64,000 bases of DNA from Phragmitibacter flavus (GTDB lineage: Bacteria; Verrucomicrobiota; Verrucomicrobiia; Verrucomicrobiales; Verrucomicrobiaceae). Both the position numbers and the translations under genes were made by a program. The notes below the pieces were generated by a model that was given only the letters and a program-made list of their open reading frames with translations, ran no database searches and was not told the DNA's origin. This document shows, one piece after another, positions 13,669 to 30,487 of this stretch; the stretch's first letter is position 1; the number at the start of each line of letters is the position of its first letter. The stretch is taken from the NCBI RefSeq assembly GCF_005780165.1, contig NZ_VAUV01000008.1:62001-126000 (forward strand). Direction: 5' to 3'.

Positions 13669-13706
13669 CTTCTAGTTCGCGAGCAGGCCACCCCAATCCA
13701 CCTCCG

Positions 13707-13874
13707 CCTTCCGCCTTCCGCCTTCCGCCTTCCGCCTTCCGCCTTCCGCCTTCCGCCTTCCGCCTTCCGCCTTCCGCCTTCCGACCTCCGACCTCCGACC
13801 TCCGACCTCCGACCTCCGACCTCCGACCTCCGACCTCCGACCTCCGACCTCCGACCTCCGACCTCCGACCTCCG
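13707..13874. repeat. Compound heptanucleotide array: 11 x CCTTCCG then 13 x ACCTCCG
   Basis: Two adjoining perfect tandem arrays with a 7-bp period: eleven CCTTCCG units (13707-13783) switch without a gap to thirteen ACCTCCG units (13784-13874). One strand is wholly pyrimidine apart from G and A at fixed positions. The array fills most of the 360-base gap between the terminator and nuoA; because 7 is not a multiple of 3 it reads open in several frames and makes spurious proteins (repeated RRSEVGG and RRKAEGG). No spacers separate the units, so it is not CRISPR. Confidence 0.97.
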
Positions 13875-13958
13875 ACTGCCCACTTGACACCACCGTCCCT
13901 CCACTTACTCTGCCCTCGTCGTTCCCCTCCCTCCTCCATTCGAACCGCCCCGCCCGTC

Positions 13959-15963: not shown

Positions 15964-17043
15964 TTGACTCCACATACCCTGCGCCTCGGCACCCGCGGCA
16001 GCGAACTCGCCCTCAAACAAGCCGAAATGGTCGAAGCCACCCTGCGCGCCGCCCATCCTGAACTCCACGTTGAACGCGTCGTCATCGCCACCACCGGCGA
16101 CAAACGCCCCGACCTGCGCTTCAAAGAATTCACCGACGGCGACCGCCTCGACAAAGGCATCTTCACGAAGGAACTCGAGTTCGCCCTGCACGACGGCAGC
16201 ATCGACATCGCCGTCCACAGCCTCAAAGACGTCCCCACCGTTCTCGACGAAGCCTTTCTCATTGCCGCCGTTCTCGAACGCGCCCCGATTGAGGACGTCC
16301 TCATCAGCCGCGATGGTTACACCCTCGAAACCCTTCCCCCCGGCGCCAAGATCGGCACCAGCAGCGTCCGCCGCATCCGTCAAATCCACTGGCTTCGCCC
16401 CGACGTTGAATGCGTCGAAATCCGTGGCAACGTTCCCACCCGCATCAAAAAACTGCAACTTCCCAGCGACCTCGACGCCATTCTCCTTGCCAAAGCCGGC
16501 CTCGTCCGCCTTGGACTTCTAAGCAGTGACACAGGCTTGCAGCCTGTGGGTGAGACAGACATCCTGTCTGTCCCTTCCGACTCCACGCCCCCAACCTCAG
16601 CCTTAATCTCACCTCAATCCCTGGCAGACAACATATCTGCCTCACCCACAGACAAAATGTCTGTGTCACTTCCCGACTTCCCTATCACATTCCCCGCCGC
16701 CATTCTCCCCTGCGGGAAATTCCTTCCCGCCGCCGGTCAGGGAGCCATCGGCATCGAAGCCCGCAAAACCGACTCCGTCACCCTAGCCTACCTCGCCGCC
16801 ATCAACCACGCCCCGACCTTCGCCCGCATCAGCACCGAGCGCGAATTCCTCCATCTCCTCCACGCCGGTTGCCAAACCCCCATCGGAGCCCACACCGAAA
16901 TCATCGAAGACACCCTCACCTTCACCGCCTGGGTCTTCGACGAACAAACGCCCGACGCCCCCCCTCAAGTCATCAACACCAGCGCGCCCCTCACCCAACC
17001 CCTCCTCGCCGCTTCCCAGGCCGCCGCCGAAGTCACGCGCTAA
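15964..17043 (+). CDS. hemC: Porphobilinogen deaminase (hydroxymethylbilane synthase) with an in-frame repeat insertion
   Basis: The start is TTG at 15964, placing TLRLGTRGSELALKQAEMV at the N-terminus; no ATG fits. It has 359 residues against a usual 300-315. The excess is explained by a 144-bp inverted-repeat element (16526-16669, 48 codons) between VRLGLL and FLPAAGQGAIGIE, which encodes DTGLQPVGETDILSV and related sequence. Catalytic features flank it: KDVPT, the RRIRQI region, GNVPTRIKK and the dipyrromethane-cofactor Cys303 (LLHAGCQTPIG). The enzyme polymerises four porphobilinogens. The insertion sits in a loop region and keeps the frame, so the protein is probably active; that is inference. 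Confidence 0.93.
   Translation: MTPHTLRLGTRGSELALKQAEMVEATLRAAHPELHVERVVIATTGDKRPDLRFKEFTDGDRLDKGIFTKELEFALHDGSIDIAVHSLKDVPTVLDEAFLIAAVLERAPIEDVLISRDGYTLETLPPGAKIGTSSVRRIRQIHWLRPDVECVEIRGNVPTRIKKLQLPSDLDAILLAKAGLVRLGLLSSDTGLQPVGETDILSVPSDSTPPTSALISPQSLADNISASPTDKMSVSLPDFPITFPAAILPCGKFLPAAGQGAIGIEARKTDSVTLAYLAAINHAPTFARISTEREFLHLLHAGCQTPIGAHTEIIEDTLTFTAWVFDEQTPDAPPQVINTSAPLTQPLLAASQAAAEVTR
16526..16669. repeat. GTGACACAG inverted-repeat element, copy inside hemC
   Basis: The 144-bp element begins GTGACACAGGCTTGCAG and ends with the inverted counterpart CTGTGTCAC. Each roughly 47-bp arm holds two small palindromes separated by CTGTGGGTGAG or its complement, and the middle shares CTCCACGCCCCCAACC with the copy at 29403-29507. 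Both arms are open in the hemC frame. No target-site duplication is obvious. Confidence 0.9.
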
Positions 17044-17050
17044 TCTATCC

Positions 17051-17075
17051 ACTTCCGACTTCCGACTTCCCACTT
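17051..17075. repeat. Short heptanucleotide array ACTTCCG before cobA/hemD
   Basis: Units ACTTCCG, ACTTCCG, ACTTCCC and a partial ACTTT with a 7-bp period fill most of the 37-base gap between hemC and the next gene. Confidence 0.75.
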
Positions 17076-29393: not shown

Positions 29394-30487
29394 CTAATCA
29401 ACGTGACACAGGCTTTCAGCCTGTGGGTGAGACAGGCATTCTGCCTGTCATCCCGAACGTCTCCACGCCCCCAACCCGTTCCATCACAGGCTACAAGCCC
29501 GCGTCACTTCTCCTACTCCTACTCACCCTCGTCCTCACCACCTGCCAGCCAGCCACCCAGCTCCACACCCTCGGCGGCCCAACCATGGGCACCACCTGGA
29601 CCCTCAAAATTTTCACCGACCACCCCGCCAACGTTCAGGACCTCATCCAATCTCGCCTCGACGAACTCGAATCCATCTTCAGCACCTGGCGCACCGATTC
29701 CGCCATCACCAACTTCAACCAATCTCCCAGCACCGACTGGATCCCCGTCCCTCAGGAACTCGCCGACCTCGCCCAGCAATCCCAGCACTTCTCCCAAATC
29801 ACTGACGGCGCCTACGACATCACCATTCCCCCCCTTCTGACTCTGTGGGGATTCGGACCTGACAAAAAACCCCGCCAGATCCCCTCCGCAACCGACATCA
29901 TCGCCGCCAAAGCCCACGTCGACTGGCAAAAACTCCACATCCAGACCACCCCACCCGCCCTGCGTAAATCCGATCCCGCCCTCCGCATCGACCTCTCCTC
30001 ACTCGTTGAAGGTTACGCCCTCGACCACCTAGCCACCCGGCTCCAACAAACCGGCCATCAACATTTTCTCCTCGAAATCGGCGGCGAAATCATCGCCTCG
30101 GGTCTCAGTGCCAAAAACACCCCTTGGACCGTCGGCATCCAAACCCCCGGCCCCGACCGCACCGCCATCGCCAGCACCACCCCCCTTCAGAACGAAGCCA
30201 TCGCCACCGCCGGCGTCTACCAGCAATACTGGGAACAAAACGGCCAGCGCCACTCTCACCTCATCAACGCCCGCACCGGTCGCCCCATCACCCACCCGCT
30301 CAGCTCCGTCACCGTCAAAGCCAAATCCGCCCTGCAAGCCGATGCCTGGGCCACCATCCTGCTCATCCTCGGCCCACAAAAAGGCCCCGCGTTGGCCAGC
30401 AAACACTCCATTTCTGCGCTTTTCCTTGAACAAACCATCCCCCCATCCCCACAATTTCTTGATTCACAACCATCATTGAAGCAATAA
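29384..30487 (+). CDS. apbE: FAD:protein FMN transferase, lipoprotein with repeat-derived N-terminus
   Basis: A 367-residue lipoprotein whose ATG overlaps the end of the NosR-like gene by ten bases. Residues 7-42 are encoded by the GTGACACAG repeat element (DTGFQPVGETGILPV); the hydrophobic core LLLLLLTLVLTTC then gives a lipobox. Family motifs follow: GGPTMGTTWTLKIF, the FSTWRTDSAITNFN region, RIDLSSLVEGYALD and the C-terminal HSHLINARTGRPITHP. ApbE transfers FMN from FAD to Thr in exported flavoproteins, and the upstream gene carries two such sites. The 36 extra residues before the signal core are unusual; GTG 29423 is a weaker alternative start. Confidence 0.92.
   Translation: MDLTNQRDTGFQPVGETGILPVIPNVSTPPTRSITGYKPASLLLLLLTLVLTTCQPATQLHTLGGPTMGTTWTLKIFTDHPANVQDLIQSRLDELESIFSTWRTDSAITNFNQSPSTDWIPVPQELADLAQQSQHFSQITDGAYDITIPPLLTLWGFGPDKKPRQIPSATDIIAAKAHVDWQKLHIQTTPPALRKSDPALRIDLSSLVEGYALDHLATRLQQTGHQHFLLEIGGEIIASGLSAKNTPWTVGIQTPGPDRTAIASTTPLQNEAIATAGVYQQYWEQNGQRHSHLINARTGRPITHPLSSVTVKAKSALQADAWATILLILGPQKGPALASKHSISALFLEQTIPPSPQFLDSQPSLKQ
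29403..29507. repeat. GTGACACAG inverted-repeat element, copy inside apbE
   Basis: The 105-bp element (35 codons) begins GTGACACAGGCTTTCAG and ends GCCCGCGTCAC, the inverted counterpart of its start. The left arm is nearly identical to that in hemC. The right arm is shorter and lacks the second small palindrome. It occupies the same codon phase as in hemC and provides nearly the same peptide. Confidence 0.9.

Follow-up and report, generated by a model that had tools for sequence, protein, structure and literature searches.

An in-frame, REPIN-like inverted repeat in hemC of Phragmitibacter flavus and its likely mobilisation by a RAYT-type transposase encoded next to argH

The hemC locus and the inserted element

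The window, i.e., the entire 64,000-nucleotide stretch of Phragmitibacter flavus DNA that was analysed, carries the essential haem gene hemC between hemA on one side and a cobA/hemD-type gene on the other, on a contig of 348 kb (Table 1). The TIGR00212 hemC model matches the open reading frame at 288 bits (cut-off 164), placing the product in the HemC family, and its nearest named relatives are the HemC proteins of Verrucomicrobium sp. BvORR034/106 (82%) and of a Phragmitibacter MAG (75%), which places the host among the Verrucomicrobiaceae. Two Porphobil_deam domains (Pfam) flank, one on each side, a segment encoded by a 144-bp unit of the form GTGACAC...GTGTCAC (window 16526-16669), through which the hemC reading frame (15964-17043) stays open without interruption. 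It is highly improbable that this hemC is decaying or mis-assembled, with the insert not translated within a working enzyme: the frame across the insert is intact, the coding signal is strong on either side of it (0.48 and 0.36), the invariant residues of the family are retained in the alignment, and the gene, in the setting described above, is the sole hemC, a HemC search of the genome having returned no second one and otherwise arm-derived peptides only.

Table 1. Features of the hemC locus and of a further element copy (positions in the window)
Feature	Position	Strand	Remarks
hemC (hydroxymethylbilane synthase)	15964..17043	+	359 codons; insert at about residues 188-235
Left arm	16526..16572	+	GTGA + hairpin (CACAGGCTTGCAGCCTGTG), then GGTGA + hairpin (GACAGACATCCTGTCTGTC)
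Spacer between arms	16573..16622		about 50 bp, little conservation among copies
Right arm, inverted copy	16623..16669	-	GTGACACAGACATTTTGTCTGTGGGTGAGGCAGATATGTTGTCTGCC on the - strand
Second element copy	29403..29507		about 105 bp; arms inverted; lies 5' of an apbE-like coding region

The arms of the hemC element measure 47 nt each and follow the pattern GTGA-hairpin-G-GTGA-hairpin. An inverted-repeat search paired 16525-16570 with 16625-16670 (78% complementary, 54 nt apart), and the best 46-nt inverted pair matched at 36 of 46 positions in the real hemC, compared with 21 to 26 of 46 in 15 codon shuffles. As single-stranded DNA, each arm is predicted to form two adjacent hairpins, with z values of -4.3 to -6.3 and no shuffle folding as well; the left arm folds at -15.7 kcal/mol (z -4.3). 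Two REP-type palindromes therefore form an inverted pair across a short spacer, which is how a REPIN is built. Within hemC the left arm is translated in frame +2 as (S)DTGLQPVGETDILSV. The element carries no gene. The arm is open in five of its six frames, and the idea that these open frames are special in themselves was rejected, given that 17% of shuffles have at least five open frames.

Position of the insert in the enzyme

HemC was found in 57 of the 59 genomes of the family Verrucomicrobiaceae (that of P. flavus included), and nearly all of the corresponding alignments jump from query residue ~189 to ~242-250, the native loop at this position being short and variable. The exception noted is the HemC of MAG Bin_29_9 (hereafter G005), where a single arm occupies this position. 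The first-pass annotation had reported a 144-bp inverted-repeat element inserted in frame in hemC, and had proposed that conservation of the segment in all relatives, or a second intact hemC, would speak against it; the open frame, the repeat family described below and the absence of the segment from nearly all relatives bear the insertion out, and the genome holds the one hemC.

Mapped on the Escherichia coli enzyme, the insert falls between HemC residues 181 and 185. In the AlphaFold model the HemC fold is preserved (mean pLDDT 87, most of the fold above 90; best PDB match 1pda, E 2e-31), and the insert block has a pLDDT of about 43-58, mostly below 60, with values below 50 confined to it. 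Based on this low confidence, the roughly 48 added residues probably form a disordered loop. The earlier proposal that the enzyme tolerates the 48 residues as a surface loop stands in so far as they model as a low-confidence loop at the mapped site; the tolerance itself is presumed, as is the function of HemC with its insert.

A dispersed repeat family

The element belongs to a repeat family for which copies were counted by searches and in fetched genome stretches. Blastn returned 79 matches to it across the genome (5.9 Mb). A pattern search for the outer hairpin plus linker that allowed up to three mismatches gave 66 arms, and a reversed control pattern gave none. Five copies match the element end to end and many others are single arms; the majority are extragenic, those in hemC, uvrA and recG being intragenic. 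It is a dispersed and very probably mobile inverted repeat. The first-pass annotation had set weight on an element length that is a multiple of three. Other copies measure 138, 144, 146, 151 and 181 bp, so divisibility by three is a feature of the hemC insertion and not of the element.

Among 38 copies no clear target motif was seen outside the arms, the sole trend being a C/A bias at positions -1 and -2, and inspection of copies by eye revealed no flanking duplication. The first tag is GTGA in 32 of 38 copies and the second is GTGN. When GTDB genomes were scanned for exact matches to GTGACACAGGCTNNNAGCCTGTGGGTG, none came up beyond the P. flavus genome, so this precise arm type is specific to that genome; the arm types of relatives were recovered with looser patterns. 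GTAG forms the second tag in 13 of 15 cases in a Phragmitibacter MAG (G004) and in 7 of 10 in G005, the first being mostly GTGG or GTGA.

A second arm subfamily (GTAACACGGAC...) is intermixed with the first. It reads GTAACAC[AG]GACTTCCAGTC[CT]GTGCGT... and often stands in tandem with the first (loci L193, L184, L024 and L021). The window also contains apparently non-coding tandem heptamers, i.e., ACCTCCG x25 (13700-13876) and a CCGACTT-type run (17048-17068), and CCGACTT-like runs adjoin element copies elsewhere, e.g., at locus L019.

A candidate transposase beside argH

About ten genes for Y1_Tnp (Y1/RAYT-type) transposases are present in the P. flavus genome (G000), and the arms bracket only one of these, a RAYT gene on contig C5 with argH on one side and a NUDIX gene on the other, so that the repeat flanks one specific RAYT gene as expected of a REPIN. 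On the argH side lies a single arm, which provides the argH stop codon, and on the other side lie two complete elements, open in frame, which join the RAYT to the NUDIX open reading frame. None of the further Y1_Tnp loci of the genome that were fetched has the arms, and the remaining Y1_Tnp genes were rejected as the source of the element since the inverted repeats there differ. As to the HUH motif and the Y1 tyrosine in a YIxxNPxKA context expected of a RAYT, the sequence at argH contains NHAHLIL and YIQQNPEKA. It scores over the cut-off for PF01797; against the NCBIfam model REP_Tyr_transpos (NF047646) it reaches 70.1 bits, below the cut-off of 80.

A close RAYT also adjoins argH in four other genomes of the family (G001, G005, G011 and G018). 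In G001, G005 and G018 this gene has its own, diverged inverted terminal repeats of 46-48 nt; in G011 the repeat finder returned no terminal pair, and single near-matches to the repeat of G001 occur on either side of the RAYT. The joint divergence of the gene and its ends makes the strongest case for the argH RAYT as the mobilising enzyme, and from these sequence comparisons we infer that it would transpose the element. Arm numbers vary widely, from 66 in P. flavus, about 103 in G004 and about 60 in G005 to three or four in G001 and G011. Arms are most abundant in G004, yet a close argH-type RAYT was not found there, and its arm-like hairpins occur near one RAYT locus only (L323).

In P. flavus, G005 and G001, a single open frame of about 500-560 aa runs through both the RAYT and the NUDIX hydrolase, the two being joined via terminal-repeat sequence (loci L074, 779-2464 on the - strand of contig C5 of G000; L118; and L345). 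A fusion protein or chance read-through are both possible readings of this joint frame.

In-frame insertions in other genes

A scan blind to frame, restricted to arm copies having coding signal on both sides, returned about 21 in-frame insertions in three genera. In P. flavus these concern hemC, uvrA, recG and the two elements in the RAYT-NUDIX open reading frame; in G004 mutS, valS, gcvP, hydantoinase B, a PPIC-type isomerase and two unnamed open reading frames; and in G005 hemC, mutS, mfd, polA, uvrA, PBP1C, sufD, a peptidase-U32/TrhP-like gene and feoB. The peptide DTGxQPVGETxILxV, a search for which in other proteins the first-pass annotation had suggested, was recovered in UvrA and RecG. 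Compared with solved structures in the PDB, the UvrA, RecG, ValS and GcvP inserts align at breaks or indels. Repair genes make up seven of the roughly 21 hosts (mutS twice, uvrA twice, recG, mfd and polA), a raw count for genes of any length. Most of the open reading frames that cross arms were rejected by coding score as N-terminal extensions or shadow frames.

All of the roughly 21 insertions use frame +2 (x|GTG) for the first arm, which thereby encodes the peptide [S/C/G]xTG(F/L)QPVGxTGILPV. Between genes, frame 0 is open in 27 of 58 readings of dimers and frame 2 in 32 of 58, counts which, like that of the insertions, are samples that ignore kinship and use semi-manual genic/intergenic labels and dimer extents. 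Since the two frames are near-equally open between genes, frame +2 would be expected by chance about half of the time. This constancy of frame +2 across hosts is a strong lead.

It could signify that the insert is a retained, selected peptide that is useful in HemC and its other hosts, e.g., in regulation, protein-protein contact or a stress response, a reading also favoured by the same HemC site, and the same MutS site, being occupied in two genera. We consider it very unlikely: the hosts and the sites are unrelated, the lengths and second-arm frames of the inserts differ among hosts, and close relatives lack them. Furthermore, the frame +2 peptide is rich in Gly, Pro and Thr, and that of frame 0 (VTQACSLWVRQAFCL) is hydrophobic and contains Cys and Trp. 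The fixed frame is thus most simply explained by purifying selection, which would also produce it if the frame 0 peptide were harmful and the +2 peptide harmless.

A bolder proposal, which we regard as doubtful but conceivable, is that a vertically inherited argH-RAYT-NUDIX locus seeds housekeeping, and preferentially DNA-repair, proteins with one flexible peptide, always in one frame, the element then being a mobile module that codes for protein and prefers one phase, be it by selection or by insertion chemistry.

Insertion sites shared across genera

The hemC insertion sites of P. flavus and G005 lie one codon apart in the same phase, and in either genome the arm found in hemC is of that genome's own type. 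In the HemC tree, two insert-free lineages are nearer to P. flavus than is G005, with moderate support (94/94), G005 branching below a clade of P. flavus, G004 and Verrucomicrobium (94/94). One could envisage an ancestral segment, present in hemC of the common ancestor of P. flavus and G005, lost in the other genera and with arms homogenised later, and both the single arm of G005 at this site, one codon off, and the branching of G005 below that clade are in line with such a history. It is nonetheless unlikely, as it requires one or more precise losses, arm type follows each genome, and the remaining HemC proteins of the family are without insert. Independent insertions into a tolerant loop are favoured over ancestry with losses.

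The MutS inserts of G004 and G005 (loci L285 and L335) are at the same residue, ALEIVP.LK.LI.E|CGTG. UvrA was hit at different sites in G005 and P. flavus (L349 and L016); the same is reported for both uvrA genes of Opitutus terrae (PMC3733652).

A REPIN-like element tolerated in HemC

We consider it very likely that the insert is a REPIN-like element that the argH RAYT mobilises and that HemC tolerates in the form of a disordered loop. It would represent a miniature mobile element made of an inverted pair of arms with two tagged hairpins per arm, the tags being GTGA and GTGN in P. flavus and GTGG/GTAG in relatives; the argH RAYT, a putative Y1 HUH enzyme, most likely acts in trans on the single-stranded hairpins, copying or moving the element. 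One copy would have entered hemC in a phase that kept the frame open, landing in a length-variable loop where the chain passes from HemC domain 2 to the strand that leads back into domain 1, and this copy presumably persists because it is nearly neutral. The term 'REPIN-like' is used since the copies inside hemC, uvrA and recG depart from the extragenic location of REPINs. Points against this reading are the score of the argH RAYT below the NCBIfam cut-off and the failure to find a close argH-type RAYT in G004, where arms are most abundant. A further one is that the inner hairpin of the hemC copy (GACAGACATCCTGTCTGTC) resembles the second arm subfamily. A transposase for that subfamily was looked for and not found; by this resemblance, a second transposase may have contributed to the hemC copy.

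Comparison with known systems

The first-pass annotation had considered mobile inverted repeats with an open frame to be unusual, a view that gives way to two precedents (PMC3733652), i.e., the Rickettsia palindromic elements (RPE) and the GTAG REPs of Opitutus terrae. The latter are the closest parallel: as described in the main text of PMC3733652, intragenic GTAG REPs in reading frames are most abundant in this verrucomicrobium, uvrA and other repair genes are among their hosts, the tag can take the form GTGG in O. terrae, and some RAYT-type genes have long terminal repeats. Hairpins with a GTAG/GTGG tag, here mainly those of G004 and G005, in-frame singles and dimers, repair-gene hosts and RAYT-type transposases are shared within one phylum, and the repair-gene share of seven in about 21, a raw count for genes of any length, echoes that report. 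The elements described here differ in that each arm consists of two tandem tagged hairpins, dimers reach 144 bp and the tag in P. flavus is mostly GTGA, and in having hemC, recG and mfd as hosts, which the main text of PMC3733652 does not name.

TIRtrons with their TIRYT genes, as outlined in the same text (PMC3733652), are similar in that a RAYT-type gene is flanked by long terminal inverted repeats of a dispersed family, whereas the repeats described here are tagged hairpins that also lie in frame in protein genes, and the locus is syntenic across genera. REPINs, i.e., REP doublets dispersed as inverted pairs and tied to one RAYT (PMC3116915), share that arrangement; those of Pseudomonas are extragenic (PMC3116915), in contrast to the common single arms and many intragenic copies observed here. 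RPE are likewise palindromes of ~150 bp that lie in frame in many genes and add a peptide segment (PMC10969869, PMC3733652). The passages of these two papers that deal with RPE mention no transposase, whereas one candidate RAYT is available here, and the likeness drawn here is to their mode of insertion.

In-frame palindromic elements, known since the Rickettsia work, raise the questions of how they move and why they stay in frame. The present set of relatives supplies the element, a candidate transposase with matching ends, expanded and unexpanded genomes and about 21 tagged proteins with a fixed frame, so that both can be put to the test in a lineage that is free-living. In-frame palindromic insertion as such is already known from the systems above; what is added here is that an intragenic family is linked to a single candidate transposase whose ends match, that the frame is fixed, and that hemC, recG and mfd are among the hosts.
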